Origin: Selenomonas sp. AE3005
Lineage (GTDB): Bacteria; Bacillota; Negativicutes; Selenomonadales; Selenomonadaceae
Length of the DNA stretch: 64,000 bases
Direction of reading: 5' to 3'
Assembly: GCF_000686945.1 (NCBI RefSeq)
Contig: NZ_JMME01000002.1
Location: forward strand, 186,001-250,000
Made by a program: the position numbers and the translations under genes. Numbering within the stretch: position 1 is the stretch's first letter; each line of letters opens with the position of its first letter. Shown here in pieces: positions 36,958 through 64,000 of the stretch. The notes under the pieces were generated by a model. It did not search any database, was not told the origin of the DNA, and saw only the letters and a program-made list of their open reading frames with translations.

Positions 36958-36962
36958 ATAAC

Positions 36963-37002: not shown

Positions 37003-37003
37003 G

Positions 37004-38454: not shown

Positions 38455-38549
38455 AGCATTTACCTCCAGTGTTGTTTATATTTACTATATACTACTGCTA
38501 GTATAGGATTAAAAAATGGTTGATAGGCAGTTTTTTTATATAGCTATGT

Positions 38550-40162: not shown

Positions 40163-40179
40163 GGGGAGGTGATTCGGAA

Positions 40180-41935: not shown

Positions 41936-41937
41936 TG

Positions 41938-44428: not shown

Positions 44429-44441
44429 GGAGTGGTACAGA

Positions 44442-46535: not shown

Positions 46536-46549
46536 GAGTAGTGTAAAAT

Positions 46550-48880
46550 ATGAATCGGCAAGGAAATGTGAATTACTATCTTCTGCTGCAACTGCCTTTT
46601 GATCCTCCAGTGACGGAGAAAGAGAAAATAGAAAAAGCCATAGTAACAAAAGAGGAATATTGGTCAAAGAATGGGAATAATGATCACCTGAATTGGTTAA
46701 ACAGAAACAAGGAAATGATAATTAATATACTGTTGACTGCAAGCCCTCAACGGCAGCAGATGCAAACTGAGGCCGGAAAGATCTTCCAGCTGGTCAGAGG
46801 AGATTTGAATGAAGCAGCAAGAAATCATCTTCTCGATGACAAGAAACGCCATGAAATAGCCAGACGTTATCAGCTTGAATTATCACAAATACATTTTATA
46901 GAGTGTCAGAGTGGGCAAAAGGTTGACTTGTTGGCAAAATACTATGAGCTGCCGTCAGGAATAAGTGAAGGCCAAAAGGGAAGTCTTCGTGCCTTGCAAA
47001 AAAAGTTAGGCAAAGATAATGTTTATACATATCTCGATTTGCCGGAAACAGCCATGGAAGAGGAAATTATACGCCGCTGTGATGAAAAAGCAAGAAAGTT
47101 AAAAAATTCTAAAAATAGTGCTCAAACTGAAGAGGGGAAAATATATGATAGTATAATAAATATTGCAAAATATAAATATGGTGTACGTTCTTTAGAAATG
47201 TATCGTGCATTTGAGAAACGTAAATCCTTGCTGGATGATTTGATAAATCGGGCAAATTCCTTAAGGGTAGATGCAGCATCGGTGTCTGAAACAGAGCAGG
47301 CATTATCAGAATGTATGGACAACGGAGCTGAAGCTAAAGATCTTATATTAGCGTTTTGTGCCAAGAATAATTTGGATGTTCAATGTGTTAATTGTCATAA
47401 CTGCCAGATATTGAATTATCAAAGTGCGACGGCTTGTGTTTCTTGTGGGGCACCTATGGCAGGGCTAGAGGAAATCTTCGGTCTGTATCAGCGAGCTGAG
47501 GATTCGCTTCACTCTTTGCAGTTTGAGCAGGCTGAGGGGTATTGGCAGCAGGCAGAAGATATTTGGCCGAAAAATCAAAGAGGGCAGGAACTGCTGGGCA
47601 GGATGCAGAAGCAAAGGTCTGAACTGGAACCCTTGAGCAATAAAATGCAAGAAGCCATGCGGGAACGGCGCTACTGTGAAGCGAGAAAACTTTATCAGCA
47701 GATTCAGGAAAAGGCACCGGACTTTAAGAATGATGCTTTTGCTACTGAGATGAACCACTGCTACACCGAAGCAATGAAGATGTTGGATAAGGCTAAGGCA
47801 TTGGATAAAGAACCGCGCACGGATGAAAATATCAGCAGGCAGGCTGAAGCATGTGCGGAGGCCTTGCGTATATGCAGGGATTTACCAGACGCAGCAAAAT
47901 GGATGCCGCCACCTAAGGCAGTAAAAGGATTGCAGATAATTTGTGATGCAGATAAATGCTGCAATTTTATATCCTGGAAGTCATTGCCAGATGAAGCCGC
48001 CTGTCAATATGTTCTGGTTCGTGGCGATAAACCCATCATAAAAGTAGATGATGGTGAAGAGATTTACTGCGGAGCAGCAATATCATTTGAAGACAAGAGC
48101 ATCAGAACCAGAAAAACATATTATTACAATGTTTTTGCCAAACGTGGCGAAAAGTATTCAACAGGAACAGATTCTCCTCTGGCTAAGAGAGGATACAAAA
48201 ATGCATATGCGTTGCCTTTTGTGGGCATTTTGGGCGAAGTCTGCCGGGTATCGGACTCTATGGTGACAAATGGGGCAACGATTAGCTTGTCCATTCCAAA
48301 ACAGCTCCCTGGAGGAATGGATGGATTTTTGGTGGTATATGACAGTGAGGATTACCCTCAGGGGCGGCACAGAGATAAAAGCAGAGAGAATTATATTTCC
48401 ATGACAGCGTATGAAAACAGTGGGAAGTTATGGATAGAGAACATTCCTGCTGATAAAGTATATATTTCGATATTTACTGTGTACAATTGGAAGATGAACG
48501 ATAATGGAGAAACTGCAGATTTATCAAAACCGCAACATATGGAATTGTCGTCACGTATTCGCCAGAAAATTCGTTTTGACTATAGTACAGAGAAAAAATA
48601 TTGGGTAGTTGGTAAAATTGAAAAGATAAAATTCAAATTTTCTCATGTGGATAATGTTTCCTTTCCCTTGCCTAAATTGACAATTGTTTGCAAACATGGG
48701 AGTTCACCGAATAACATAAACGATGGACGTGTTTTAGGGATCATATCTAAACAAGATGAAAGAAAAATAATGTGGGAAAAAGAGCTTGAAGTGAATGATT
48801 TGGAAAAAGGTATGTATATAAGCGTGTTTCAAGAGGATGGACATTCTTTGAGAAGTACGAAGGGAATATATGAGCTTTAA
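46550..48880 (+). CDS. J-like/zinc-ribbon/TPR/Fn3-like scaffold protein
   Basis: A 776-residue protein. Residues 6-110 recall a J-domain (NYYLLLQLPFDPPVTEKEKI...YWSKN) but lack HPD; a second similar unit (VYTYLDLPETAMEEEIIRRC...) lies at about 158-225. Then a zinc ribbon (CVNCHNCQILNYQSATACVS, about 279-298), helical TPR-like stretches (about 305-450, YQRAEDSLHSLQFEQAEGYW), and an Fn3-like segment (about 460-545). The C-terminal 200 residues are beta-rich and unidentified. In position it serves as the co-chaperone of the operon's two Hsp70s; the missing HPD suggests it binds without standard ATPase stimulation. Confidence 0.6.
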   Translation: MNRQGNVNYYLLLQLPFDPPVTEKEKIEKAIVTKEEYWSKNGNNDHLNWLNRNKEMIINILLTASPQRQQMQTEAGKIFQLVRGDLNEAARNHLLDDKKRHEIARRYQLELSQIHFIECQSGQKVDLLAKYYELPSGISEGQKGSLRALQKKLGKDNVYTYLDLPETAMEEEIIRRCDEKARKLKNSKNSAQTEEGKIYDSIINIAKYKYGVRSLEMYRAFEKRKSLLDDLINRANSLRVDAASVSETEQALSECMDNGAEAKDLILAFCAKNNLDVQCVNCHNCQILNYQSATACVSCGAPMAGLEEIFGLYQRAEDSLHSLQFEQAEGYWQQAEDIWPKNQRGQELLGRMQKQRSELEPLSNKMQEAMRERRYCEARKLYQQIQEKAPDFKNDAFATEMNHCYTEAMKMLDKAKALDKEPRTDENISRQAEACAEALRICRDLPDAAKWMPPPKAVKGLQIICDADKCCNFISWKSLPDEAACQYVLVRGDKPIIKVDDGEEIYCGAAISFEDKSIRTRKTYYYNVFAKRGEKYSTGTDSPLAKRGYKNAYALPFVGILGEVCRVSDSMVTNGATISLSIPKQLPGGMDGFLVVYDSEDYPQGRHRDKSRENYISMTAYENSGKLWIENIPADKVYISIFTVYNWKMNDNGETADLSKPQHMELSSRIRQKIRFDYSTEKKYWVVGKIEKIKFKFSHVDNVSFPLPKLTIVCKHGSSPNNINDGRVLGIISKQDERKIMWEKELEVNDLEKGMYISVFQEDGHSLRSTKGIYEL

Positions 48881-48900
48881 GGTGCAAGGGAGTGAAAAAA

Positions 48901-50286
48901 GTGAAGTTTTTATGTCCGTTTTGCTATACCGAACATGACGTGGAAGAAATCTTATTTCGCTGTGCTAATCCACATTGCGAGAAAGAACCAGATGACAGGC
49001 TGGAATGGTATGAAAGCGGGATGAAAAATAACGCGAAGGAGATTGCACGCCGTAAGAATGATGTGGATGTAGGTAATGAAATAGAAGATGAAGAAATGAC
49101 AATGAACATTTCTGCTAGATATGCCCATGTGTTTTCTCCTTCTGGAAATGTTAAAGACGCAATTAAGAATAAGGGGGCTATATGCGATAAATGCGGTGAG
49201 AGAAGCTATATGCGAATTTGTCCGAATTGTCACAATGAATTATCAGAATATGTATACAACCCTAAAAATGAAAAAAATATGATTGTATCTGTATTGGGAC
49301 AGCGTGGTGCTGGTAAAAGTGTTTTTTTAGGTGTACTGCTTCATGAAATACTTGAAGCAGATGGTGTGTTTACATCAATTCTGGGGCGTAATAAAAATTC
49401 AGGATGTGTAGAAAGTGTAAATGATTCCAGGAATCGCTATAATGATGTTTTTGGTAAATTCATGTATGCACCAAATGATGCAAGAAGAATTTTAGAACAG
49501 ACACAGAGTAGTATTCTTAATGCGAAGGAGAGTGGTGCTTATCGTCCGTTTATTTATAATTTCAAGTATGATGAGAAATCGATGTTTCCTTCGTGGATTC
49601 CGTCTTTAGGAAATCCTATAAGGAAGAGTTTTGATTTATATCTATTTGATGCTGCTGGTGAAGATCTGGAAAATAGGAGCAGTATCAATATCGCCAACCG
49701 TTATCTGAGTTATTCAACAGGTATCGTGTTTTTGTTGGATCCGATGCATCTGACGGAATTCGTGTCCAAATTGCAGGATGAGAAGGCGATCCGTAATGCG
49801 GCATATGGTAAAGCGAAAAAAGATTTGATAATGGACGGATTGGATACGACATTGAACGTTATTGAGCAGATAGCAGAGCGCATAAGGCATGAGAAAGGTC
49901 TGAAAGGCACGGAACTTATCGACATACCTTTGGCAGTTGTGGTTTCAAAATGCGATATGTTCATACCTTTTTTGGATGCGGATGCTGCTATTGGTCAGAC
50001 GAGTCCTCATATACAGGCACGGGGGTTTGTGACAGCTGATGGCAATCAGATAGACCACGAGGTAAAAGGATTTTTGGAAGAAAATGGCGCTGGGGGGCTT
50101 ATCCGGAAATTAGCCAATAATTTCAGTAATGTGCATTATTTTGCAGTGTCGGCATTAGGGAAGAATAATAATCCGAAAACCAATGAAAAAGGTGAACATA
50201 TAATTGCCCGGCCTAGTCCACATCGCATAGCAGATCCTCTGCTTTGGTTATGGCATCAGGAAGGTATCTTGAAAGCTGTGCAATAA
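48901..50286 (+). CDS. Zinc-ribbon GTPase (double-GTPase system, GTPase B)
   Basis: A 461-residue soluble protein. N-terminal zinc ribbons (LCPFCYTEHD; RCANPHCEKEPDD; ICDKCGERSYMRICPNCHNE, to about 120), then a GTPase: P-loop VLGQRGAGKSVFLGVLLHEI (about 132-151), DAAGEDLENRS (switch 2 region, about 250-260) and VVSKCDMFIPF (SKxD, G4-like). It parallels GTPase A in domain order but has no membrane spans. It precedes the GAP1-like gene by 27 bases. Start GTG 48901 has better spacing to AAGGGAG than GTG 48892. Confidence 0.65.
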   Translation: MKFLCPFCYTEHDVEEILFRCANPHCEKEPDDRLEWYESGMKNNAKEIARRKNDVDVGNEIEDEEMTMNISARYAHVFSPSGNVKDAIKNKGAICDKCGERSYMRICPNCHNELSEYVYNPKNEKNMIVSVLGQRGAGKSVFLGVLLHEILEADGVFTSILGRNKNSGCVESVNDSRNRYNDVFGKFMYAPNDARRILEQTQSSILNAKESGAYRPFIYNFKYDEKSMFPSWIPSLGNPIRKSFDLYLFDAAGEDLENRSSINIANRYLSYSTGIVFLLDPMHLTEFVSKLQDEKAIRNAAYGKAKKDLIMDGLDTTLNVIEQIAERIRHEKGLKGTELIDIPLAVVVSKCDMFIPFLDADAAIGQTSPHIQARGFVTADGNQIDHEVKGFLEENGAGGLIRKLANNFSNVHYFAVSALGKNNNPKTNEKGEHIIARPSPHRIADPLLWLWHQEGILKAVQ

Positions 50287-50313
50287 CGAAATGGATAAGA
50301 GGTGATTACTAAT

Positions 50314-52443
50314 ATGAGTTTGCACCAAATAATATACACATCATGCCGGTGCGGCATAAGGGGAGCAGGTGATGGCCTGCAGATTTTTTCACATGACAGG
50401 CAGTTTCCTCAGTCTATGATTGCCGAGGTGCAGAATATGTTTTCATATACGCACCCTCGCCTTTCTGCCGGACAATCTATGACGGATGAATTAGCAAAGG
50501 CGATGCCATCATCTTTCTTTTACCGCTTTTTTAGGGATGGTTCCTGTGCATTAGCCCAGAATACATATTTGGGTCATGACTATATGGGGGCAACGGGGCG
50601 TTTTGGCAATTACATGAGCCATGTGATTGTATTTCAGAAGCAGCTGACGCAGCAATATCCCTGTGAATTTTGGGAAAGCCCTATGCTCCGCAGAGCGATG
50701 AAATATGAAGAGGTCAATGATCCTAATGTACCGGCTTATTTGCCGGAGCCAACTGGGGAACCTGGCAGCATGATAAGTGTTGCTTCTATCAAGGAGTTCC
50801 TTGGGCAGGCTAACCGTTTGGAAATCTATAAACATATGTTGGCAGCATTGTTGTATTTTCGTCGTGAAAAAAAACGGGTAGTGATTATAGATGAAGCAGA
50901 GAATATCATTTTTTGGATTGCTGCTTTGGAATATGCCTTGCCTTTGAGTTTTGCTCAGCGCTTGAATTTTAACACATATGAATATAATCCAGACACTTCA
51001 CAGGCAAGGATATGTGGCGTTTTAGAAGAAGGAACAAAGTTTTCTGTAAATAATGCAATGCATCATTATGTGTTTGATTTGAAACGTGATTGTTATCCTA
51101 AGTTTCCCCAAGAAGAATTCCTGGATTTTGTTTTATCTGGATTTTTGGATGATAATGAATATGACGAACTGAAGATCTTCCATAGATATTTGGAGGAAAA
51201 TTTCACGTTCCATTTAGCTAACGACAAATTGTATGATGCCTATAGATTGTATTTAATGATGGAAAAGCATCAGTCAATGGATATACATAAGCTGGATAGA
51301 GCATTGACTTTTGCTAATGAATATGGTAATAATGAATTTTTAGAACGTGTTATTCCGCCAATAATGGATGGGATGAATGGAGTCAACGATCTGGAGCTGT
51401 TCTTATGCCTGAAATCATTTTTCGTCCAAGCTGTAGATAGGACAGGGTGGGATTTGAGTGGACAGCTGAAAGGCCGCTTTGCCAATATGATCATCATTTT
51501 ATTTACAGCAGCTAAGGATGGAACTGATTTTAAAGGAAAAATGGAGAGCCTGTCAGAAAATGCAGATAAACTGGGCTTGAACATAGATATGATTATGCAT
51601 GAGGATCAGACGTTTGCTGAATTTGGCAGTATAACGTTGGAACAGAGAAAAATATGGCAGCGTGATTTCTTCATTGAAAGATTGCAAAGCCGGTTGCAGC
51701 ATGGAAACTCTTGGTTGGATGAAATAACAGCTGAATGTGAGAAGGTAATCTTTAATGTGATATTTCAAGCGTTGGAAGAAGCTAAAGAAATTGGTATATG
51801 CCGATATTTGCTTCTGTTGCTATCCCATATGGTTAAAGACAGCAAAATTCGTATAGAAAATTATTACTATCCTTTCTTGAGGCACTATTATGATAGACTT
51901 AATGATTTTGATCGACAAAAATCATTTAAATATAAAGTTGAATTATTGGAACAAACCCAAAACTCTAAACGTTCAATCGAATATGTGGCCAATTTGATTT
52001 CAGATATATTGAGTGAGATACCGTTCAAAAAGCTGGATCGAGAATTGATGAACATTATTGGTATGGCTGATGATTGTGTGAACAGTCAACAGATACAGCC
52101 GCCAAGTAGATTATGTATGCTGAAATTAGGCTGCTATTTGCAGAATTGTAAAACTGGGCATATCGTCTGGGATGAATTGGCTCATTATTCTCCCTTGATT
52201 ATGGATGGACAAGAGGAGAATATCCATGAGTATTTTGTTTGGATAATACCAGATGTTGTAAGAATATTTGCCGAAAAAAAATCACTTGATAATTTCATTG
52301 ATAATTTAAAAATTACAAAAGAGCAAGAAGAAACTTTTAGAATAGAATTGCATTCTTACTATGATAGTAAAAAGAAAATTAATCAAGTGAAATCAGCAAT
52401 GAAGAATGTTTTTAAGTCATTCACGTTTTTGGGAAAGCGGTGA
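50314..52443 (+). CDS. GAP1-like (GTPase-associated protein 1) protein
   Basis: A 709-residue protein whose N-terminus fits the GAP1-N type: SLHQIIYTSCRCGIRGAGDG (2-21), AEVQNMFSYTHPRLSAGQSM, FFYRFFRDGSCALAQNTYLG, GRFGNYMSHVIVFQKQLTQQ. A middle P-loop-less NTPase-like segment (VVIIDEAENIIFWIAALEYA, about 188-207, then LPLSFAQRLNFNTYEYN) resembles GAP1-M. The rest is helical. GAP1 proteins accompany paired GTPases in bacterial operons and are thought to couple them to effectors. Assignment rests on remembered family patterns, not a search. AGAGGTG precedes ATG 50314. Confidence 0.6.
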   Translation: MSLHQIIYTSCRCGIRGAGDGLQIFSHDRQFPQSMIAEVQNMFSYTHPRLSAGQSMTDELAKAMPSSFFYRFFRDGSCALAQNTYLGHDYMGATGRFGNYMSHVIVFQKQLTQQYPCEFWESPMLRRAMKYEEVNDPNVPAYLPEPTGEPGSMISVASIKEFLGQANRLEIYKHMLAALLYFRREKKRVVIIDEAENIIFWIAALEYALPLSFAQRLNFNTYEYNPDTSQARICGVLEEGTKFSVNNAMHHYVFDLKRDCYPKFPQEEFLDFVLSGFLDDNEYDELKIFHRYLEENFTFHLANDKLYDAYRLYLMMEKHQSMDIHKLDRALTFANEYGNNEFLERVIPPIMDGMNGVNDLELFLCLKSFFVQAVDRTGWDLSGQLKGRFANMIIILFTAAKDGTDFKGKMESLSENADKLGLNIDMIMHEDQTFAEFGSITLEQRKIWQRDFFIERLQSRLQHGNSWLDEITAECEKVIFNVIFQALEEAKEIGICRYLLLLLSHMVKDSKIRIENYYYPFLRHYYDRLNDFDRQKSFKYKVELLEQTQNSKRSIEYVANLISDILSEIPFKKLDRELMNIIGMADDCVNSQQIQPPSRLCMLKLGCYLQNCKTGHIVWDELAHYSPLIMDGQEENIHEYFVWIIPDVVRIFAEKKSLDNFIDNLKITKEQEETFRIELHSYYDSKKKINQVKSAMKNVFKSFTFLGKR

Positions 52444-52447
52444 TTGA

Positions 52448-53209
52448 ATGGATGTATTGAGAACTATAGCTGCTGCTTGGGATAAAATAGATATGACGAT
52501 GCAGTATTTTGAAAGAGAACATACAATAATAGCGATAGTTTTCATTATTATGTTCTTTGCTGCAATAGGATATGGTTTATATGTCATGTATGGTCTGTGG
52601 TCTGGTGAAAAGCAAAGAACTCCTGATGAAGTTAGTAATGATGCTTTTTTATATGCCGTAAAAATAATATCAGCAGTAGTCGTTTTTTGCATTTTCTTGT
52701 TATATGCCCAGGCAACAGATATATATGATAATATGGATCGTAGCAAAATTGCATTGGTCGAAAGTATAAAGAAAGAAGAAATTCGAGAACAAATAAATGA
52801 TGCGGTCGGAGTTGATAGGGTGGTGGCCTCATTTGAAAGTGATGAAAGATGGGAGGATTATAAAACAGTATCTGTTGGTTTGCAGGCAAGTGACCAAAAT
52901 AGTGATTTATATGTTTGGAAATTTAACGGAGGGTATGAAGCCAGTTTTTTGGTTAACAAAAATGGCTATATTTATGGGGCAGCATTCCAGCTGCCAGAGG
53001 GAAAATATATAGAAAACAAAGATAAACTGTTATTGTTTGTAAATAAAGTGGTTTATGTTGATGTTTCTCCAGATGTTTTAAATGAGGCTGTTGATGAAGT
53101 GGTCGCAGGAAAAACAACAGCATTTTATAGTAATAATGCCAAGAGAGATTATCTTATGTATTTCGATGGTAAAAAATTCATAATAGAAGCATATGTGCCC
53201 CGAAAATAA
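52448..53209 (+). CDS. Membrane-anchored protein with exported beta-rich domain
   Basis: A 253-residue protein. Two membrane spans (about 23-48, TIIAIVFIIMFFAAIGYGLY, and about 66-90, VKIISAVVVFCIFLLYAQ), then ~160 residues likely on the other side of the membrane (YVWKFNGGYEASFLVNKNGY, VVYVDVSPDVLNEAVDEVVA). No domain recognised. It is five bases after the GAP1-like gene, so part of the operon. Role may be a sensor or effector at the envelope. Confidence 0.55.
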   Translation: MDVLRTIAAAWDKIDMTMQYFEREHTIIAIVFIIMFFAAIGYGLYVMYGLWSGEKQRTPDEVSNDAFLYAVKIISAVVVFCIFLLYAQATDIYDNMDRSKIALVESIKKEEIREQINDAVGVDRVVASFESDERWEDYKTVSVGLQASDQNSDLYVWKFNGGYEASFLVNKNGYIYGAAFQLPEGKYIENKDKLLLFVNKVVYVDVSPDVLNEAVDEVVAGKTTAFYSNNAKRDYLMYFDGKKFIIEAYVPRK

Positions 53210-53254
53210 TATGCGTTGTCGCTTGTGAATTATAATATGTGGGAGGAATGTAAG

Positions 53255-53890
53255 ATGCGTGTAGAGGGACATTGGGATACAGATTTGGGGAAATTTATAC
53301 CGAAAAATAAGGATGAAGGTGGAGCCGCGTTTATTATATTTTGTTTAGTGGCTTATGGCATATATACTGTATGCTTGTCGATATACTTATCTTTAGCAAC
53401 GGCATATACATCTGTGTTTATGCCGGATGAACCCCATATGGCATATGATACATTTTATGCTGATGGAATAAAGCATTTAGCGGAACAACATGCACAGAAA
53501 ATTGTGTTAGATAATCAAATTAAATCATGGCAAAACATAGGATGGGTTAATGATAAACAAGCGACAAGGGGCTTTCAATGTGAATCAGATGATGTATCAT
53601 CTGAAATACTAAAAAAAGTTAATGTTAATCCTGCTGATATTTGGTATAAAACCAATCAACATAGTATAGTGCAATCTGTGATTTGTGTAAAAACGACGTT
53701 GTTTACAAATGGAAAAGAATTAAAAATAGATGGTAGTGGTGATAATCTGGAAATAATACAGTATTTTGTTGTAAGGATGTCTTTGGATTCTAAAAGAAAT
53801 ATATTGGTGGAACATAAATTTTCAAATGAACAGATTGTTCCCTGTTATTGTAATTACGATTTGGAAAAATTATCTAAAGTTGTTTTATGA
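53255..53890 (+). CDS. Single-span membrane protein with soluble C-terminal domain
   Basis: A 211-residue protein with a long hydrophobic region (GGAAFIIFCLVAYGIYTVCL, residues 23-42, extending to about 55) and a ~150-residue hydrophilic domain (YDTFYADGIKHLAEQHAQKI..CVKTTLFTNGKELKIDGSGD). No family recognised. ATG 53255 follows GGGAGG at the right distance; an upstream TTG is less likely. Last gene of the operon, ended by the terminator at 54040. Likely partner of the previous membrane protein. Confidence 0.55.
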   Translation: MRVEGHWDTDLGKFIPKNKDEGGAAFIIFCLVAYGIYTVCLSIYLSLATAYTSVFMPDEPHMAYDTFYADGIKHLAEQHAQKIVLDNQIKSWQNIGWVNDKQATRGFQCESDDVSSEILKKVNVNPADIWYKTNQHSIVQSVICVKTTLFTNGKELKIDGSGDNLEIIQYFVVRMSLDSKRNILVEHKFSNEQIVPCYCNYDLEKLSKVVL

Positions 53891-54039
53891 GCATCTACTT
53901 TCTGTTATATGCAGTCAAAGTCTGGCTAAATTCCAATAACAATGAATGATAAAGATGGATTTGTATATAATAGGAAAATCGCATGATATTTAATTTTGCT
54001 ATACTGTGATTTTATGTCTTTATATGTAGTGGTCTATAA

Positions 54040-54084
54040 ATACCGATGATAAATTGGATTAAACCAAACATCGGTATTTTTTTG
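54040..54084 (+). terminator. Terminator after the chaperone-GTPase operon
   Basis: ATACCGATG / CATCGGTAT arms with a ~20-base loop, then TTTTTTTG. It separates the 38.8-53.9 kb operon from the PcfJ-like 2-3 operon. The remainder of 53891-54100 is AT-rich spacer. Confidence 0.8.
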
Positions 54085-54100
54085 TTTTTTCTTATCTCTA

Positions 54101-54156
54101 TCAAATATGAGTGACTAAAAAAAATTCTCCCAACCGCATGATTAATCTATTATAAA
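54101..54156 (+). promoter_or_regulatory. TCAAATATGA operator and promoter of the PcfJ-like 2-3 operon
   Basis: TCAAATATGA (54101-54110) then TATAAA (54151-54156). The dyad centre is about -58 from the inferred start at 54163, a ~105-base leader precedes the gene, and there is no good -35. Confidence 0.65.
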
Positions 54157-54267
54157 ATGAAACCATAGATTACAGGACACTACCATTCATCAACGAGGAG
54201 GTATGACAACTATTAGATGATGAATGCAGCTATTGGTGTAGGCTTCTAAAAGAAAGGAGCATAACTA

Positions 54268-56289
54268 ATGCAAGGGAAGACTTTTTGCTATGACTTTTTC
54301 AACAAGGCGTGGGAGCGATGCCAAGACAGTGATTTGGGCTCGGAGTTCCTTGAACATATTCCAGTCCATTTTATTGTCCATCGCCAGAAAGGAGCTGCTG
54401 CCTCCTTTAAGAATGTTGTCTGGTGTCAGGATCATGATACCTATGAGGAGGTGCTGTCCTATGAAAATTATCATTTAACCACTAAAAAAGGTTGCAGTTT
54501 TCGTGGCTTGATTGGAATGGAGCCACCATCTTTCTCTACAAGGACAACGATACGCTGGCGGGTTTTCTACTGTGAGCAGTCTGGTATTGTTACCATAAGC
54601 GCAGACAATGCAGATATCGTGATGACCTTATACAAGGATAAAAGTTTGGATGAACGGGTATATCGGCCTCATTTGCGGCAGTATCGTACAGATAGCCTGT
54701 CCATTCAGTTGTCAGATAAAAAAATTATTCCAAAGGATAAATTTCAACAGATACCATTACCTGTTGTGGAAGCAGCCCTGCATTACTTGCAGGATGAGGC
54801 TGAAAAGCTCTATGGAAAACGACCCAGGTTGCCTGCAAGTTGGTCAGGAGATTGTTTTAAATCTAATCAATCACGTCTGACAGCGTTTGTCCATTTTCCA
54901 TTCGACATGAATCTTTGGTGTCTGAAAGATTACTTTAATGACAAACGTAAATACAACAAGTTATTCATAGAGAATGAATCGGATAGATTCTCGTGTTTAT
55001 GCAATGTATGGGGGCTCAATAGTTCCGCATATATTAAAAATTTATATGACAATAATCCCTTGTCAATTCCTATTGTGTCTTTGCTAAACTATTTGGGAAT
55101 CAAACGTCGCGAACTGGTGGAATCATTGCTTCAGATTGAGGGATTATGGGGGAGTTCTTTAGCTGAAGACTGTAAAAAATATATACTGAGCCAGTCGTAT
55201 GGTGGAATGCATTACGAGAGCTTTACCAATTCATGTTTTGAAGATAAAGCGAAAATGCGAACTTTTCTTAACCAATACAGAAGCACCTTCAACACATGTT
55301 TTTCCTTTTTTTTCTACTGCCATTGGCGATTGTGGAAATATGGGGAAGAGGATCTTACAAATCATCTGTTGCTTCTGCATAAACATTGGCAGGATAAATA
55401 CTTGCATGATTTTAAGCTCTTTTTTAATTATTATCCAGATTTGCCTTCAGAATGGAAAGATCGTCTGGGAAAAGAAGGCTTCAGTATGAATGTTCACAAT
55501 GAAATGGTACATATTATTAACAACGAGAAGCTAGATTGGCCTGAGTTCATCTACAGTGAAAAACAAGTTGGTTATGAATGTGAAATTGATGGTTTTTCTT
55601 TCCGCCTTATTTACAATAATGACGCATATCAAACTATTATGGGGGAATTGGTATTTAACTTTCCTGGAAAAGATACTGTTCTGCCAGATGTAGGAATCCT
55701 GCGTGTGGCTGTCTACAAGGACGGACGTGTAGTAGCATACATAGAATTACATGGTATTGCCAAGATTATCATGCATAATGATGCGTTACAGGCACGTTCC
55801 AGCTTTTGTTCTGCTTCTATTCGCGTGGCTTTTCTGCATTGGTTGAAATGGACAGGGCTTTGGGAAAAATATGGGCCATACTATGAGGATGACCTTATCG
55901 TATTAGATGAAGAGGTTCAAGCAAAACCGATTTCAAAAGATATTGGGATAAGCCTTTACGAGCTTTTGCACTTGCCTGAAACAGAAGACGGCTATTATCT
56001 GAGGCTTCACCAGGCTTTTTTGAAATCACGTCCACTTTGTTTTGATACAGTACCTCGTGAAATTGATGATGCTGAGACAGAAATGGCCTATCTTATGGAT
56101 TTGTTCCCCTACGGAAAACGTCTTTATGAGGCCGCATTTGATGGAAACAGCGAGGCTATGTATGCGCTTTCTCTTTGCTATTACAATGGTCGTGAACGTG
56201 AGACACTTTTTCCACCCGATAAAGAAAGTGCTGATTTTTGGAATCGGTCAAGGTTCGAGCAGTTAAAAAGAAAGAAGGTAATAAAATGA
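54268..56289 (+). CDS. PcfJ-like protein with Sel1-like tail, paralogue 2
   Basis: A 673-residue paralogue of the gene at 32.5 kb. Shared landmarks: the N-terminal ~90 residues (WCQDHDTYEEVLSYENYHLT), GKRPRLPA, FVHFPFDMNLWCLKDYF (compare IERPFDINIVFLKNFF) and WECEINGYNF-like VGYECEIDGFSFRLI. The PcfJ core is degenerate: the FNNCV Cys and the QALGKYN block are not kept. A Sel1-like tail follows (LYEAAFDGNSEAMYALSLCY). Its stop overlaps the next start (ATGA), so it is an operon with the membrane gene and paralogue 3. AAAGGAG precedes ATG. Confidence 0.6.
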   Translation: MQGKTFCYDFFNKAWERCQDSDLGSEFLEHIPVHFIVHRQKGAAASFKNVVWCQDHDTYEEVLSYENYHLTTKKGCSFRGLIGMEPPSFSTRTTIRWRVFYCEQSGIVTISADNADIVMTLYKDKSLDERVYRPHLRQYRTDSLSIQLSDKKIIPKDKFQQIPLPVVEAALHYLQDEAEKLYGKRPRLPASWSGDCFKSNQSRLTAFVHFPFDMNLWCLKDYFNDKRKYNKLFIENESDRFSCLCNVWGLNSSAYIKNLYDNNPLSIPIVSLLNYLGIKRRELVESLLQIEGLWGSSLAEDCKKYILSQSYGGMHYESFTNSCFEDKAKMRTFLNQYRSTFNTCFSFFFYCHWRLWKYGEEDLTNHLLLLHKHWQDKYLHDFKLFFNYYPDLPSEWKDRLGKEGFSMNVHNEMVHIINNEKLDWPEFIYSEKQVGYECEIDGFSFRLIYNNDAYQTIMGELVFNFPGKDTVLPDVGILRVAVYKDGRVVAYIELHGIAKIIMHNDALQARSSFCSASIRVAFLHWLKWTGLWEKYGPYYEDDLIVLDEEVQAKPISKDIGISLYELLHLPETEDGYYLRLHQAFLKSRPLCFDTVPREIDDAETEMAYLMDLFPYGKRLYEAAFDGNSEAMYALSLCYYNGRERETLFPPDKESADFWNRSRFEQLKRKKVIK

Positions 56290-57152
56290 AAGGGAATAAA
56301 TTGTGGTTCATCTTTGCGGGAGTCTTGCTTTTGCTGGCTGGAAGTTATGGTATCTTTAGCTTCAATAATGCTTGGGCTCCAATCCTAGTGATTATTGGCT
56401 CCGTCAGTATCTGTTTGGCGGCCAGCGTACCCATGACAACTTTGAGGGAAGCATTAGCTTACTGTCCAGCAGTCGGGTATAAACCTATCCCTCATGAACC
56501 AGCCTTAATTGCCCGTATCTTTATGAGCATGTCTTGTATTGCCCGGTGTGGTGGTATTTTAGCACTGGAAAAGTTCATGAATGGTAAATATGACAATTTT
56601 ATTTACCATATGGGAAAAAATATGGTTATAGATGGAATGGATCCGGATTTTGTCAAGTCCGTGCTTTTAAATAATATCCGTCAAATGCAAAGACGGAGGG
56701 AGTTGAAGGTGCGCTATTTGCGGCAAATAGGCTTTCTGTTTTTCTATATTGGCTTTTCCGTAAGTATTATCGGCGGCCTTGCCTACGGTGGTCGTATGAT
56801 CAAGGCGCAGGAAATATCAGTAGAAGGTATGGAACTGTTAATAGGGATAACCGCGATTTTCCTTATATTAGGACTTCTCTTTGCTTTTTTGTTATCCTTT
56901 AGGGAAAAGAACAGTTCGTTTCAGGCAGCTCAAATTCAACGGCAAATACTGGCCGGTATATTGGCAGTGCAGTGTGGAGATTCCTTTAATGCCATACTTC
57001 GCCAACAGTATACATTTCTTTCCTCTGAGGAAGTGAAACTTTTGAGTGAAACACCTCTATTACCGGAGGTACAGTCTTATTCTGAAGCCAGTTATGACAA
57101 GACTGTAACTGCTATACGTAATAGCTTGAGAGAATTTAACAGTACTATATAG
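56286..57152 (+). CDS. Four-span membrane protein between PcfJ-like paralogues
   Basis: A 288-residue protein with paired membrane spans near the N-terminus (LWFIFAGVLLLLAGSYGIFS, about 5-24, and ILVIIGSVSICLAASV) and a second pair (IGFLFFYIGFSVSIIGGLAY; LIGITAIFLILGLLFAFLLS). Between and after them are charged helical domains. No family recognised. It is coupled by ATGA overlap to the preceding PcfJ-like gene and lies 12 bases before the next, so it likely forms a complex with one or both of them. Confidence 0.55.
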   Translation: MKGNKLWFIFAGVLLLLAGSYGIFSFNNAWAPILVIIGSVSICLAASVPMTTLREALAYCPAVGYKPIPHEPALIARIFMSMSCIARCGGILALEKFMNGKYDNFIYHMGKNMVIDGMDPDFVKSVLLNNIRQMQRRRELKVRYLRQIGFLFFYIGFSVSIIGGLAYGGRMIKAQEISVEGMELLIGITAIFLILGLLFAFLLSFREKNSSFQAAQIQRQILAGILAVQCGDSFNAILRQQYTFLSSEEVKLLSETPLLPEVQSYSEASYDKTVTAIRNSLREFNSTI

Positions 57153-57164
57153 GGGGGACGGGAT

Positions 57165-59234
57165 ATGAATAACTGGGCTTTTACGTTTCATATTGAAAAT
57201 GGGGCATGGAAGGAACGTAAAAATGCTTCTTTTCTCGAAAAAGACATTTCCGAGATCCCAATTGTACCTATTGTTGAATTTTATCTAGAACGTACAGGTG
57301 AGAAATGGGAAAAGGCATGGTGCGAGAAACATCATGCCTATGAGGAAATTCAGTCTTGTAAAAATGATCAGGTCATTACTAAAAATGGTTGCAATTTAGA
57401 AGGATTGGTAGTGCCTGTAAAGAACTATGTATATCAATCGGAGAATAGATTTTTCAATGAACCATCAAGCATTACTGTATGCTGGCAGGTACATAATCGT
57501 CCTGCAGATAAAATGGTGTATTTAGAATATGACACGATAGATATACTCTTTAACTGGGAAAAGGAAAAAACAAATGAATTTATAGCTGTACCATCTCTTG
57601 TGGGAAACCATAAATATACTGTTTCATTATCTATAGCAGAAGGAACGACTGATAATCCATATATCAAATTGCCCTATGCTGTCATGGTATGTGCTTTAAA
57701 AGCATTGCAGGATAACGCTTCGTCAATTTATGGTTTTACTCCAAGGGTATTTATCAACTCCAAGCCGGAGGATGAATACTCCTCACGTAGCTATCAAAGT
57801 GGTTATGATCTTGAGCTCAAAGCATTTTTGAAAAGACCGCTCGACATGAGCATATTTTACTTCCGTAAATTTTTCCCGCCCCATAAGGAAGGAGATACAA
57901 GAGCGGAAAGAAATGACTTTGACATCTTGTTCCCCCGTGATCAAAGGGAAAATTTCCTATCTCTTGCCAAGCACTTGCATTTTGAGCCCACCCAAGAACA
58001 TCGACAATTGTATGAGAGTAATCCATTAGCACTGATTCTCCACATTGTGCTACCTGAGCTTGGCATAGAGACCTCCGACTTGATAAGTAAATTTGATCAT
58101 CTGGAAAGCTTCTGCGGTAAGCGTATAGGCGAAGATACATATAGGAACAGGATGTTTTTTGATCCGTTGCACCAAAAAGAAAATGATGAGGATGATGATG
58201 AAACCAATGCGTACAAAAGCCTGAGATTTTACTGCCAGTGGCTCCGCCAACACATTTCAGAGGAGAAATTGGCAGAGCGTCTTCTGGTAGCCCAGAAAAA
58301 TTGGCGTGGTTGGAAGCTGGTTGCTCTTGAATATTTTAGAAAATATTATTCCCAGGTGCCACAGGCGTGGAAGGATGAGCTCATAGCTAATGGACTAAGT
58401 GCAGATCTTCGAGACAAGCTCTCCATCCTGGAGCAGAAGGAGCATGAGTTAGGGAAGAATGTTCAATATTACCCAGAAGCACCTGACTGGGAGTGTAAAA
58501 TCAATGGTTATAATTTCCGACTGATACCTTCCATTGATAAATTTAAACGTATGGCCTGGAACCTTTCTTCCTCCCATGTAACGCAACGGATGGATGAAGT
58601 GAAGGAAAAGTCAATTTCCTGCTTTGCTGTGGAGCGGAATGGCAGATATCTGGGTTTTATCTGGTTGCAAGACAAAACTGTTATGTTGGATTGGTTTCCT
58701 GAATACAAGAATTATATCTTGATGGCAAAGTGCCATATTGCCTTCCTCTATTGGATGAAACGTAACGGCTTGGAAAGAAATTTATGCCTAAACGATGATG
58801 ATTCTTATGTGGCGTTGAATCAGCCCTTTAATGTGGAGCCAGTGCAAAAGGATCAAGAATGGGAAAAACTGAGCATTTTGGAAATGATGTCAAAAACACC
58901 GCGCGCTGGTTATTACCTAAGTTATTACCGCAAGCTTGTAGAAGGCAGATTGTTGAGAACCTATTCTCCTGCACTGACAGAGGATGAAGGGGAGTATATT
59001 GCCAAGCATTATACATGGGGAATCCCTATATATGAGGCTGCAGTAAGAGGGAATGCGGAAGCCCAATATGTTATGAGCCTGTTTTATCGTGATGGTGTAT
59101 GTACAGCTTATCCTGACAGAAGGCGTGGTGAGGAATGGTACAAACGAGCTGTAGAAAGCGGTTGGCTTGAGATTGCCCCGGACCAAGGTGATATACAGAT
59201 TGCTGGATTTCCTCTGCCCAAAATGAAAAATTAA
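57165..59234 (+). CDS. PcfJ-like protein with Sel1-like tail, paralogue 3
   Basis: A 689-residue paralogue of the proteins at 32.5 and 54.3 kb. N-terminus NNWAFTFHIENGAWKERKNA, then EIPIVPIVEFYLERTGEKWE (compare RLPIVPLVEW in paralogue 1). FLKRPLDMSIFYFRKFF and WECKINGYNFRLIPS are shared blocks. The PcfJ-core Cys and QALGKYN residues are replaced. Sel1-like tail: YEAAVRGNAEAQYVMSLFYR and RRGEEWYKRAVESGW. It has an imperfect acidic stretch (ENDEDDDETN, about 340-349). GGGGGGACGGG precedes ATG. Last gene before mobile-element scars. Confidence 0.6.
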   Translation: MNNWAFTFHIENGAWKERKNASFLEKDISEIPIVPIVEFYLERTGEKWEKAWCEKHHAYEEIQSCKNDQVITKNGCNLEGLVVPVKNYVYQSENRFFNEPSSITVCWQVHNRPADKMVYLEYDTIDILFNWEKEKTNEFIAVPSLVGNHKYTVSLSIAEGTTDNPYIKLPYAVMVCALKALQDNASSIYGFTPRVFINSKPEDEYSSRSYQSGYDLELKAFLKRPLDMSIFYFRKFFPPHKEGDTRAERNDFDILFPRDQRENFLSLAKHLHFEPTQEHRQLYESNPLALILHIVLPELGIETSDLISKFDHLESFCGKRIGEDTYRNRMFFDPLHQKENDEDDDETNAYKSLRFYCQWLRQHISEEKLAERLLVAQKNWRGWKLVALEYFRKYYSQVPQAWKDELIANGLSADLRDKLSILEQKEHELGKNVQYYPEAPDWECKINGYNFRLIPSIDKFKRMAWNLSSSHVTQRMDEVKEKSISCFAVERNGRYLGFIWLQDKTVMLDWFPEYKNYILMAKCHIAFLYWMKRNGLERNLCLNDDDSYVALNQPFNVEPVQKDQEWEKLSILEMMSKTPRAGYYLSYYRKLVEGRLLRTYSPALTEDEGEYIAKHYTWGIPIYEAAVRGNAEAQYVMSLFYRDGVCTAYPDRRRGEEWYKRAVESGWLEIAPDQGDIQIAGFPLPKMKN

Positions 59235-59350
59235 TAGAGCTAATATTTTTCAGAGGGAGCCCCATCCGTGTGAGCATCACAGTACATGACCATGAAGGGG
59301 TGGAGGCTGATGATTTTTCCATAGTGAACTAAAAGTGCAGAATTGAAACA

Positions 59351-59408
59351 GCATACGGTTTGCGTTGCTGAGTGGCCAGTAGCTAACGCAAACCGAATGC
59401 TTGAAAAA
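59351..59408 (+). terminator. Long hairpin/terminator after the PcfJ-like operon
   Basis: Arms GCATACGGTTTGCGTTGCT (59351-59369) and AGCTAACGCAAACCGAATGC (59381-59400) pair with three mismatches or bulges; TTGAAAAAAA follows. Likely transcript end, though without a T-run on the plus strand. Confidence 0.55.
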
Positions 59409-59660
59409 AATGATTAATGGGGGTATAGAATAAGACAGTCTATAAAAGATAGTGATGTGCTATGAGAATACATAGAATTTCGATAAACATGGAATATCGT
59501 AACATAAATATTAGAAATTTATTAAAATATATTGACGCATATTTTGCCCAGTGATATTATTAAAAATGTAGGAACAACAATCTACATCAATGTTGAATTT
59601 TGTAGTTATATAAAAAATATTGATATTGAACTGATTTAATTTATTGCAAAAAACGGATTA

Positions 59661-59804
59661 ATTATAACGCCGTTGTTCCAGTTTTGCCGCAGGCAAAACT
59701 TCCTCTTGGCGTTTCAACGAGGCGGGAGATATATGCTCACCGCCTGTTAGTAAATTAGGAACTCGCCACCTATAGAGGTGGGAGACATCTTCTTCCGAGT
59801 TATA
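59661..59804 (-). repeat. 140-bp structured repeat, copy B (inverted)
   Basis: On the minus strand: TATAACTCGGAAGAAGATG ... GAACAACGGCGTTATAAT, the same element as at 9844-9984 but in the opposite direction and with TATAGAG in place of TGCAGAG in the first hairpin loop and a different following loop. Flanks differ, so it is an independent insertion. The rest of 59410-60245 is AT-rich and without a gene. Confidence 0.6.
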
Positions 59805-59977
59805 TTATTTGATTAAATGAAACCAATTCCATGTTGATATGGTAATAAATCTTAATTGTGTTGTTTCTATGCTGTGATTCATCTTATATGTGCTCGTGAA
59901 CAATATGAGGGACAAAAGATGTTAGCCAATAGCATATAGTATCAAAAAATACTTGGTGTGCTGTTCATTTTATGAAG

Positions 59978-60033
59978 AAGCCGGAGTAGACAATTGACAC
60001 TTATCGTGTCGAAGTCTTCTCCGGCTTTTTTTC
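59978..60033 (+). terminator. Terminator-like hairpin upstream of the chimeric ORF
   Basis: AAGCCGGAG / CTCCGGCTT arms around an inner hairpin (GACAC / GTGTC), followed by TTTTTTCTT. A strong intrinsic terminator with no gene before it for several hundred bases, so it is probably a scar of lost mobile DNA. Confidence 0.75.
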
Positions 60034-60245
60034 TTAGACAAACAAAATATCGTGCCTGAGTTGCAATAGGGCAAAGGATATTCTTATATGGCAAAATGAT
60101 TTTGATTTTATAAAATCTATTTTGCCATTTTGGAGTACCCTCTCCTTATTGCACCCATTTTGAGGAAATACAGGTCTGTGGACTCCAGAAGGTTCACAGG
60201 CCTTTTTCTGTGTCCTTTGCCCGGCTCAGGGGAAAGGACACTATC

Positions 60246-62672
60246 ATGAAAATCACATTGTACTACGAAGACAAGAGTCATCCAACCGTTCTGGAGGTTC
60301 CTGATGAGGAATGCACTGTGATGGTGGAAAAGGACTATCAGCAGCGACTGGCAGGAGTAGAAGACAAGGAGAACATCATTGCCATCATCGGCGATGGTTC
60401 CATGAGTGGCGGTGAGGCTTTGGAAGGACTGGATACGGCCGGGGAAATGAAGTCCAATCTGATTATTGTGTTCAACGATAATGACCAGAGCATTGCTGAG
60501 GTTCATGGCGGTATGTATAAGGGCTTCAAAGAGCTGCGCGATACCAACGGTAAGTCAGAGCGTAATCTGTTCAAAGCTATGGGGCTTGATTACCGGTTCG
60601 TCGCTGACGGTAATGATACGGAAGCACTGATAGTTGCTTTTGAAGAGGTTAAGGATATTGACCATCCAGTGGTAGTGCATATCGTTACCCAAAAAGGAAA
60701 AGGTTATAAGTTTGCCGAAGAGAACAAAGAAGACTGGCATTGGCATATGCCCTTTGATATTGAAACGGGCGAAGTAAAACAGCCAATGATTGATCCCTAC
60801 GCAGAGCAGACTGCCGAAACTTTCCTGCGGCTGGCCAAGGAAGATAAGAAATTCATTGCCATCTCTGCAGCTACTCCGGCCAGCATGGGGCTTACTCAAG
60901 CTCGTCGTAAGGAGTTGGGTGAGCATTACATTGACGTGGGGATTGCCGAGGAGCAGGCCGTGGCCATGGCATCTGGGTTGGCTAAAAATGGTGCTCATCC
61001 TGTCTTTGGAGACTATTCAAGTTTCTTCCAGCGCACCTATGATCAGCTGGCGCAGGATGTATGTGTCAATAACAGCCCCGCAACCTTCCTGGTGTTCTGG
61101 GCCTCCATGTATGGCATGAACGATGTGACGCATCTGGGCTTTTACGATATTCCCATGATGAGCAATATCCCGAACCTCGTGTATCTGGCACCGACTTCCC
61201 CGGAAGAATATCAGGCTATGCTGGACTGGGCTGTCCCCCAGGATAAATATCCCGTGGGCATCCGTGTCCCCCATATGATGGTGCCAAGTTCCAATCGTTC
61301 TGTTCGCAAGGATTATGATGAACTGAACAAGTATGAGATGGTACAGCAGGGCAGTCATGTGGCTATCCTTGGCTTGGGTAGTTTCTACAATCTGGCAGAG
61401 GAAACGGCAGCTAAGCTGAAGGAGCAGGGGATTGAGGCTATCGGTGATGGTTCCATGAGCGGTGGTGAGGCTTTGGAGGGGCTGGATACTGCCGGGGAAA
61501 TGGATTCCAATCTGATTATCATATTTAACGACAATGATATGAGTATCGCTGAAGTTCACGGCGGCATGTATAAGGGATTCAAAGAGTTGCGTGATACCAA
61601 CGGTAAGTCGGAGCGTAATCTGTTCAAGGCAATGGGGCTTGATTACCGGTTTGTAGCGGATGGCAATGATGCGGAGGCTTTGATTGCTGCTTTTAAGGAA
61701 GTCAAGGATATCGACCATCCTGTTGTTTTGCATATTGTGACACAGAAGGGAAAAGGTTACAAGATTGCCGAAGAGAATAAAGAAGATTGGCACTGGCATA
61801 TGCCGTTTGATATCGAAACGGGTGAAGTAAAGCAGCCGGTGGTCGACCCTTATGCTGAGCAGACGGCAGAAACCTTCCTGCGTCTGGCGAAGGAGGATAA
61901 GAAATTTATTGCTATCTCGGCAGCCACTCCTTCCAGCATGGGACTTACCCAGGAACGCCGTAAGGAACTGGGCGAGCATTACATTGACGTGGGCATTGCC
62001 GAGGAACAGGCCGTGGCGATGGCTTCGGGACTGGCCAGAAATGGTGCTCATCCTGTCTTTGGGGATTTTTCCTCTTTTTTCCAGCGTACCTATGACCAAC
62101 TCTCCCAGGATGTGTGCGTAAATAACAGCTCTGCCACTTTCCTGGTGTTCTGGGCATCAATGTATGGTATGAATGATGTGACGCATTTGGGGTTCTACGA
62201 TATCCCCATGATGAGCAATATTCCGAACCTCGTGTATTTGGCACCGACTTCGCCGGAAGAATATCAGGCCATGCTGGATTGGGCAATTCCGCAGGAAAAA
62301 TATCCTGTGGCCATTCGGGTGCCCCACATGATGGTGGGCAGTTCGAATCGTCCGGTGCGCAAATCCTATGATGAACTCAATAAGTATGAAGTAGTGAAGG
62401 AAGGCAGCCGTGTTGCCATCATTGGTTTAGGGAATTTCTACAATTTGGCGGAAGATGCGGCGGCTAAACTCAAAGAACAAGGCATAGATGCCACACTTAT
62501 CAATCCAATCTTCATCAGTGGGCAGGATAAGGATTTGTTGGAAAAACTGAAAGCCAACCATGAACTGGTCGTAACCTTGGAAGATGGCGTCCTGGACGGC
62601 GGCTTTGGCGAAAAGATTGCCCGCTTCTATGGTGCAGATAAAATGATATCTACAGTAGGTAGTGTATTATAA
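60246..62672 (+). pseudogene. dxs: Chimeric ORF: conjugative-element N-terminus fused to two partial Dxs-like copies
   Basis: An open frame of 808 codons. Residues 1-33 (MKITLYYEDKSHPTVLEVPD, ECTVMVEKDYQQRLA) resemble the start of a small sigma-like protein common on Firmicute conjugative elements. From ENIIAIIGDGSMSGGEALEG (about 38) a Dxs-like transketolase begins, running to GIEA (about 398). There it restarts at IGDGSMSGGEALEG (about 399) and runs to the stop. Each copy has the GDG thiamine loop and the DVGIAEEQAV Glu. The N-terminal ~140 residues with GGHxGP are missing in both, and the last ~40 in the second. The protein is unlikely to be active. Start 60246 has GAAAGGA before it. Confidence 0.75.
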
Positions 62673-62877
62673 GTTGGTTACTATAGAGGTAGTGATATAA
62701 CCAGTAAATACAAGGGGGGATAGACATATAGACGTATAGTAAGTGTTCCTTGAAAATTGAATATACTCATTGATATTATTCTGTAGAATAATGATTGAAT
62801 AAATATAGTTTATGTTATATAATATAGGAAGATAGACGTATTAGACATGGATTTGATGTATTGGAGGGATTTGATAC
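62673..62877. other. Leader and left end region of the recombinase element
   Basis: AT-rich stretch with repeated TAGACGTAT (62733 and 62833 areas), AGACAT and TTGGAGGGATTTGATAC just before the recombinase ATG. The Dxs homology ends at about 62640. No gene. The repeated GACGTAT sequences may be recombinase-binding sites at the element's left end. Confidence 0.4.
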
Positions 62878-63960
62878 ATGGAGTTACATGTTATAGGACG
62901 TGCAGGAAGCCAGGCAGTTGTTCTACTGGATAATGAAATGAGGATTGTTAAGCCAGTATACGACTACCTGAAGTTTCAGCGACAAAAGGATAGAGCGCTT
63001 AATACCTTGAAGGCAAATGGAAGTGACTTAAGAACCTATTGGGAGTTCCTTGGTGAGTACGGATATGAGTATGATAAGGTTACACCGATGATGATTGCTG
63101 AGTTTATAGATTATCTCAGGGCATCAGAAGATGTAACTGTTCTCCACAAAGAGAGCAAGAGGACGAACAAGACAATCAACAGGATTTTAAGCACGGTTTA
63201 TAATTTTTATCAATTTGAAGTTGATATGCATGAAGTAAACAATCCCATCTTGATGCACGATGTAAACAGGCCATTCAATGCTTTCAAGGGAATATTGGAG
63301 CATGCCAAGGCTGACAATAAGACAAAGCATTCGATATTTAAAGTTAAAGAGAGTAACTATAGGGTGCGCTTGGTTACAGATGATGAGATGAGGTTATTCT
63401 TGAATCATCTGGATAAGCGCAGAGATATTCTCCTGTATAAGATGCTTTATCTTACTGGCGCAAGGATTCAGGAAATACTAGACCTTGAAATTGATTCTGT
63501 CCCTCTACCGGATATGTCCAAGGCTGTAGGATGCTTCCAGCAGATTAAATCTAAAGGCAAGCATAGAGATTTATATGCGCCAATGTTATTGATAAAAGAG
63601 ATTGATGACTTCATTTTGGAAGAAAGAAATTTAATCGATACGGAGCATGGCTATATCTTTGTATCAGAACAGAAAAGGCAGCTTGGCAAGCAGCTTACCT
63701 ATAGTGCTGCCTATGACAAACTTAAAAAGGTGCAGAAAGAGGTTGGGGTTGCCTTCAACTTCCATGATTTGAGACATACATTCAATTCACATCTAGCTGA
63801 GATGGGCATGGACATAAGCCTTAGAAAAATACTGATGGGACATGAACATATTTCTACTACACAGATATATACACATCTTTCTGCTCCGTATATAGAGGAT
63901 AGCCTGTCAAGATATTGGAGTTGTAGTTCATTGCTAGGAGGTGGCTCTGATGACAGGTAG
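62878..63960 (+). CDS. Tyrosine recombinase (Tn554 TnpA-like)
   Basis: A 360-residue phage-integrase-family recombinase. The N-terminal SAM-like domain spans about 20-130 (TLKANGSDLRTYWEFLGEYG). The catalytic domain has Arg in LTGARIQEILDLE (about 192-204), FHDLRHTFNSHLAE with His and Arg (about 294-307), LMGHEHISTTQIYTHLS (about 319-335) with His and the likely nucleophilic Tyr in IYTHLS. Its stop overlaps the start of another gene (63950), as in Tn554-type elements that encode two or three recombinases in a row. Those elements target specific sites. It lies against the broken 3' end of the chimeric Dxs ORF. Confidence 0.8.
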   Translation: MELHVIGRAGSQAVVLLDNEMRIVKPVYDYLKFQRQKDRALNTLKANGSDLRTYWEFLGEYGYEYDKVTPMMIAEFIDYLRASEDVTVLHKESKRTNKTINRILSTVYNFYQFEVDMHEVNNPILMHDVNRPFNAFKGILEHAKADNKTKHSIFKVKESNYRVRLVTDDEMRLFLNHLDKRRDILLYKMLYLTGARIQEILDLEIDSVPLPDMSKAVGCFQQIKSKGKHRDLYAPMLLIKEIDDFILEERNLIDTEHGYIFVSEQKRQLGKQLTYSAAYDKLKKVQKEVGVAFNFHDLRHTFNSHLAEMGMDISLRKILMGHEHISTTQIYTHLSAPYIEDSLSRYWSCSSLLGGGSDDR

Positions 63961-64000
63961 GCCAGAAAGTGATGAATGGAATATCATTGACAACGATAAA
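63950..64000 (+). CDS. Start of a second gene in the recombinase element, cut by the window edge
   Basis: ATG at 63950, after AGGAGG, opens MTGRPESDEWNIIDNDK in a new frame and runs off the window. The 11-base overlap and the arrangement match the second recombinase (TnpB-like) of Tn554-type elements. Only 17 codons are visible, so the family is inferred from context. Confidence 0.5.
   Translation, partial: MTGRPESDEWNIIDNDK

Follow-up and report, generated by a model that had tools for sequence, protein, structure and literature searches.

The question raised by this locus is how one reading frame of Selenomonas sp. AE3005 (genome G000) came to hold two incomplete, head-to-tail copies of a Dxs-family gene behind a foreign start, and whether its product could still act as an enzyme. 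We analysed the frame within its window, i.e., the whole stretch of 64,000 nucleotides, against genomes of the same genus (22) and family (189), AE3005 counted in both; the features are collected in Table 1. The frame runs from ATG 60246 to TAA 62672 and is open for the 808 codons read by the first-pass annotation; an upstream GTG at 60210 would give 820 aa. A candidate ribosome-binding site precedes the ATG, and the counts of promoter-like (3 found vs. 4.5 expected) and terminator-like sites (2 vs. 1.0) before the start are uninformative in either direction.

Table 1. Features of the chimeric frame, its surroundings and the related prophage gene (window positions unless a locus is given)
Feature	Position	Strand	Evidence or remark
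Promoter region of the resident dxs2, TTGACTTGAAGTTCACTCAAGGGTATAGAC, common to intact dxs2 genes of the genus	26685..26766	+	
Left fragment, resident dxs2 codons 1-50	26767..26915	+	flank comparison with L058
attL-like junction, core TGGA followed by the element arm CAAAAT..TTGATACAA	26912..26950	+	as in G002, G003 and G018
Island between the resident dxs2 parts, 33 kb	26916..60045	+	
Phage-type gene relic, leader and first ~39 codons (ATG 60246)	60046..60367	+	relatives match phrog_11138
Copy 1, dxs2 codons 134-492, a mosaic foreign to the locus	60363..61439	+	family profile, tblastn, identities, trees
Junction between codon 492 (copy 1) and codon 142 (copy 2)	61438..61440	+	2 shared bases
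Copy 2, resident dxs2 codons 142-543	61440..62646	+	97.8% identical to the intact G015 gene
Left part of the 7.7-kb three-tyrosine-recombinase element inserted in dxs2 codon 543	62647..64000	+	
Complete dxs2 with its own promoter inside the G003 prophage, 154 bp past the recombinases	L050:7733-9481	-	

The frame is made up of about 39 residues of a phage-type gene, dxs2 codons 134-492, a second run of dxs2 codons 142-543 and eight C-terminal residues (ISTVGSVL) contributed by a recombinase element. Both Dxs pieces are of the PRK12315 type (NF008968, “dxs2”), covering profile positions 134-491 (516.4 bits) and 142-542 (590.7 bits). Alignment bears out the description of a first part ending at GIEA (codon 492) that abuts a second beginning at IGDG (codon 142) without a linker. 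The foreign start had been put at 33 residues; its first boundary in fact lies about six residues further on, with DNA kinship to the start gene extending from 60046 to about 60367 and dxs2 beginning at 60363 (DKENII). This first join falls inside GACAA(G), present in both the phage-type gene and dxs2 (about six shared bases). Illegitimate deletion appears to have made the first two joins; the third marks where the recombinase element inserted in codon 543, ATGA being present at both ends of the element and in the dxs2 gene of G015. The two copies had been said to differ by many silent and some residue changes, and their comparison agrees: identity is 82.2% over 1053 nt, the longest exact run is 24 nt, and 140 of the changed bases lie in synonymous codons against 47 in non-synonymous ones.

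Codons 1-133, which are missing from both copies, correspond to the N-terminal region in alignments with solved DXS chains, the nearest solved chain for the PRK12315 type being 9kpq_A. A working PRK12315 enzyme would be expected to be complete and to include the N-terminal cofactor-binding part; the frame holds only positions 134-491 and 142-542 of 582, the C-terminus being absent from copy 1 and truncated in copy 2. The two histidines needed for DXS catalysis are located within codons 1-133; the product should therefore be inactive as a DXS, and the frame is probably a pseudogene, a decaying scar. A whole-genome family search placed the dxs2 pieces of AE3005 at window positions 26767-26931 (profile 2-56), in the frame itself (134-491 and 142-542) and at C2:256346-256477 (536-579), and found no further PRK12315-type copy; by tblastn the four pieces cover codons 1-50, 134-492, 142-543 and 543-582. 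Dxs-like tblastn rows at or below 55% identity were excluded before counting, as were rows below 60% in the gene-order comparison. The only ordinary dxs of the genome is intact (626 aa, C2:176528-178381), and three further Dxs matches are weak (about 22 bits or less). A genome can lose dxs2, since it is absent (E <= 1e-20) from four of the 22 genomes of the genus (G005, G011, G012 and G016), two of which are 99% complete.

Three of the four pieces are one resident gene, because the same locus is uninterrupted in G015 (L058), a member of the same genus, and copy 2 pairs with the G015 gene at 100/100 in the tree. The left flank (window 22329-26915) corresponds to L058 1-4591 (92.7% over 4606 nt), copy 2 (window 61439-62646) to L058 4865-6072 (97.8% over 1208 nt) and the right flank beyond the recombinase element (L019 10362-11086) to L058 6066-6787 (93.2% over 725 nt); alignments shorter than 60 nt, window alignments ending at or before 22000 and L019 alignments starting at or before 2600 were left out. 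The first two parts of this gene now stand 34.5 kb apart, and its last 40 codons (543-582), past the recombinase element and outside the window, are separated from copy 2 by 7.7 kb. The layout of TTGACTTGAAGTTCACTCAAGGGTATAGAC before the left fragment is presumably that of a MerR-type promoter. Between copy 2 and the G015 gene 27 bases differ, of which 19 lie in synonymous codons and eight in others; this is too small a number to tell whether selection still acts on copy 2. G015 also carries a stray dxs2 fragment (codons 511-563; L058:15208-15366), 9 kb downstream of its intact gene and near the contig end.

The last interruption is explained by an element that runs past the window to about C2:256360 and is followed by dxs2 codons 543-582, so that the claim that the recombinase element cut the second copy holds: the missing end lies on its far side. 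It encodes three tyrosine recombinases of 360, 484 and 518 aa (PF00589 in all three), then a DUF6262 protein (PF19776) and an MmeI-like restriction-modification protein, the whole standing as one unit at L019:2879-10240. Its tandem tyrosine recombinases, small further protein and lack of a long target repeat are shared with Tn554-like elements; it differs in having three tyrosine recombinases followed by the DUF6262 and MmeI-like proteins.

The break at codon 50 is of another kind. A dxs2 start cut at this codon and continued by the same foreign arm (TGGA/CAAAAT..TTGATACAA) is found in G000, G002, G003 (Selenomonas montiformis WCA-380-WT-3B3) and G018 (Selenomonas sp. ND2010). These four all belong to this genus (22 genomes) and account for every case counted among the 189 family members; a G010 fragment at a contig end (positions 3-47) was excluded from this count. 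One of these genomes, G003, has the complete prophage arrangement at dxs2: attL, prophage, two serine recombinases, a complete dxs2, attR and then resident codons 48-582, with 59 kb between attL and attR. The right end reads GTGCTTGTATCAAGTTCATACTGATAA/TGGAGGC and passes into the resident gene up to its end. The arms TTGATACAAGCA mirror each other across the core TGGA, and such mirror-image arms around a core are expected of a serine-integrase attP. Six of nine prophage proteins tested have named phage functions (holin, head protease, major head protein, terminase, DNA polymerase and Gp2.5-like), two match phage families of unknown function and one has no match. The two recombinases at the right end (591 and 525 aa) each have Resolvase, Recombinase and zinc-ribbon domains (Pfam), and the IMG/VR version of this prophage stops short of dxs2, 157 bp past the final recombinase codon. 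With all three domains, a short core and mirror-image arms, the system conforms to the large serine integrases, from which it departs in having two adjacent recombinases and relatives that sit before prfC or tgt. It also resembles prophages and islands that restore part of the host gene they enter, such as phage 21/e14 in icd, in its site-specific insertion in a coding gene by an element that carries sequence of that gene; here, however, G003 carries a complete gene with its promoter beside the integrases and a changed attachment stretch, and the window keeps only a wreck.

AE3005 thus has the attL of a serine-integrase insertion at dxs2 codon 50. An attR was absent at its dxs2 by exact pattern, by which a changed attR could be missed; the pattern occurs at dxs2 only in G003, and before prfC in G006, G011 and G012. 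No G003-type recombinase was found in the AE3005 genome at E <= 1e-40, nor any in the window, the island included, by tblastn. The island contains PD-(D/E)XK genes, a small AAA gene, Sel1/PcfJ-like, AAA and WYL genes and a double-GTPase/Hsp70/GAP1 cluster; apart from the start piece, no phage gene was recognised among the subset of its frames scanned. What it has in common with other genomes is attL and the small AAA gene, which is common to G002 and G018 and seen in G006. The cluster between window positions 34771 and 59234 combines double-GTPase domains with a GAP1 protein, an AAA protein and two proteins of Hsp70-like type, one of which has VWA; it resembles GTPase-associated clusters of the conflict or defence kind. 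When nine proteins of the island were run through PADLOC, it gave WYL at 2.5e-19, weaker matches in four others and none in four. A short hairpin-rich piece at 59660-59800, of which 61 nt match G002, is a putative end of an IS200/IS605-type element.

The start piece of the frame had been assigned to a conjugative element. Its relatives occur in seven other genomes (8 of the 189 of the family, counting AE3005); all five genes tested match phrog_11138, a phage family of unknown function, and three of four scanned have a C-terminal sigma-70 region 4 (Pfam). The neighbours tested (L079, L082 and L085) belong to portal, head-closure, Mu Gam-like and anti-repressor families, and no conjugation genes were noticed among the listed frames beside these relatives, part of which were family-scanned. 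The conjugative origin was accordingly dropped, the neighbours being of phage families. A serine recombinase of the G003 type lies about 3 kb from the relative in G165, 7 kb in G058 and 13 kb in G057; in G014, the other of the four stretches examined, none was found and the contig ends beside the gene. Taken with the phage-type relatives and neighbours, this suggests that the start piece fits a phage of the G003-prophage kind. The G003 prophage itself has no match to the 40-residue start and none to phrog_11138, the sole G003 match to which is at C1:274961. A phrog_11138 scan does not discriminate, as it gave matches, for the most part through the sigma-like end, in 21 of the 22 genus members and in 9 of 14 controls. 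AE3005 has a second match (4.5e-16) in a frame of 159 aa at C2:141266-141643, 45 kb left of the window, perhaps a further prophage.

Copy 1, by contrast with copy 2, is foreign to the locus. Its nearest relatives differ by part: codons 134-250 are 94% like G002, G006 and G018, codons 250-420 are 94% like one of the two G009 copies, and codons 421-492 are nearest to the G003 prophage copy (86%) and then to the G003 remnant (84%), no other copy exceeding 79%. Copy 1 is thus a mosaic. In a tree of codons 421-492 (216 columns) it groups with the G003 prophage copy at 97/92, and both group with the G003 remnant at 99/98; in a tree of codons 142-420 its placement is not resolved. The dxs2 trees have 19 rows, with G019 and G020 not included. 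A further dxs2 of G002 (L057:7682-9169, contig C10) ends after codon 490 and is followed by a 1235-aa frame; this break point is two codons from the end of copy 1, a hot point or a coincidence.

We consider it probable that the chimeric frame is the decayed scar of a serine-integrase insertion that carried its own dxs2 and was later cut by the three-recombinase element. The ancestral state would be an intact dxs2, as in G015. A large-serine-integrase element, most likely a phage, would have entered at codon 50 with a dxs2 near its right end, yielding resident codons 1-50, the element, the element's dxs2 and resident codons 50-582; copy 1 would have arrived in this way. One deletion would then have taken the integrase along with the 5' portion of the element-borne dxs2, fusing the remainder to the start of a phage gene, and another would have run from codon 492 of the element copy to resident codon 142, attR included. 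Finally, the three-recombinase element would have entered codon 543. We infer this order of events. The phage-like start piece slightly raised our confidence in this history and slightly lowered that in its rivals. Several observations speak against it: AE3005 has no G003-type recombinase and, by exact pattern, no attR at dxs2; the scanned frames of the island hold no recognised phage gene besides the start piece, to which the G003 prophage has no counterpart; the full arrangement is seen in one genome, and its IMG/VR version excludes dxs2; and codons 134-420 of copy 1 are closer to the G002, G006 and G009 copies than to that of the G003 prophage.

That same affinity favours an alternative in which copy 1 is a second chromosomal dxs2, moved beside the resident gene by a rearrangement, and the element brought no dxs2; moreover, two dxs2 loci do exist in some genomes of the genus (G007 and G009). 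We nevertheless think this unlikely, since copy 1 stands at the position that dxs2 has in the G003 prophage and groups with that gene over its 3' third, and since integrase-terminator DNA also precedes the G002 and G006 copies. The open frame, the candidate ribosome-binding site and the in-frame state of both main joins would also suit a new fusion protein kept by selection, with 808 codons open across three joins. The missing codons 1-133 and the cut C-terminus argue against this, and the listed matches from the 21 remaining genus members include no counterpart; further, two in-frame joins have a chance of about 1 in 9, and with copy 2 about 2% from the intact G015 gene an open frame may only mean youth. 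A maintained fusion is hence very improbable.

An assembly artefact is, if anything, a slimmer prospect: the genome is a draft of 25 contigs and the join was not found in other records (viral contigs), but the sequences joined come from non-homologous positions and share 2 and about 6 bases, with no long repeat, the copies share no exact run longer than that given above, and the surrounding layout is explained by relatives. The head-to-tail order of the copies might finally suggest a fresh tandem duplication of one gene; given their divergence and the tree, in which copy 2 groups with G015 and copy 1 elsewhere, so that the two have different nearest relatives, we rejected this candidate and accord it a negligible probability. 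The first-pass view of two older, distinct copies was therefore right.

Comparable traces are present at other dxs2 loci. Integrase-end/terminator DNA running through the dxs2 promoter precedes dxs2 in G007, G018, G006 and G002, as in G003, and the G007 version keeps approximately the last dozen integrase codons. MerR, dxs2 and TetR adjoin in G007, with TetR 4.3 kb further on in G009; G018 has MerR followed by a dxs2 fragment, an island, a complete dxs2 and TetR, which, set against the side-by-side order in G007, indicates that its gene has been divided but is complete once more beyond the island. In G002, a remnant of the split gene was looked for next to the dxs2 fragment and not found. Integrases related to those of G003 were examined at 46 loci (20 genomic and 26 on viral contigs, one of these being the G003 prophage), where dxs2 follows the integrase only at the G003 locus, tgt at two and prfC at one, a weak survey as many loci have little DNA downstream. 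The arm TTGTATCAA stands just before prfC in five of 11 loci (L116-L126), preceded in G011 and G012 by an integrase end; the prfC of AE3005 has such an arm before it. The region upstream of prfC is thus a putative alternative target for integrases of this family, located at the ribosome-binding site; as related integrases use it, dxs2 may be a minor target. Viral contigs yielded no relative of the phage-borne dxs2 and, as exact patterns, no match to the element arm, attP or the join of copies 1 and 2; Dxs-like matches occur in 34 phage records, the best at 62.1% identity. In another genus, a dxs2 with an internal deletion was seen (G187:C26:72458-73912; query 1-908 abuts 1193-1739).

The dxs2 of the G003 prophage is itself unusual at the attachment site. 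In a per-codon comparison reaching to codon 570, its codons 46-60 have a mean identity of 60% to the other copies, which are mutually 87% identical (lowest 80%); its codons 421-510 are also more divergent than in the rest, though to a less marked degree. When 15 complete copies (G019 and G020 not included) were scored by identity to the nearest relative in 8490 overlapping windows of 17 codons, the seven lowest all belonged to this copy, at codons 45-67, directly at and after the site core; single windows elsewhere in G010 and G018 fall to 0.706. In the core, TAGA replaces TGGA without altering the amino acids (GTG GAG to GTA GAA). Set against the G007 copy, which lies next to the integrase scar, the prophage gene differs at 14 codons within codons 46-64, eight silently and six with a residue change, so that the changed stretch is not purely silent. 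Gene conversion from an ordinary dxs was rejected, those of G003, G018, G007, G001 and G000 being different at this stretch, which was found at no other locus examined. The simplest reading, from one genome, is that selection acted against recognition by the element's own integrase.

For annotation, the locus is a warning: an 808-codon open frame with strong enzyme-family scores is probably dead, a wreck of ordinary type whose history is unusual. More tentatively, Selenomonas phages that integrate in dxs2 by a large serine integrase may bring a complete replacement, with its own promoter, recoded at the attachment site so as to escape their integrase, the chimeric frame from its phage-gene start onward being the fossil of such an event; we regard this as a real possibility, though short of an even chance. 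None of the titles and abstract openings listed deals with dxs as an integration target or with a recoded replacement copy. If the phage scenario is true, the host would keep its enzyme and the phage would avoid inserting in its own dxs2 copy; an element that destroys a host gene yet supplies an altered full spare would then constitute a natural recoded rescue gene.
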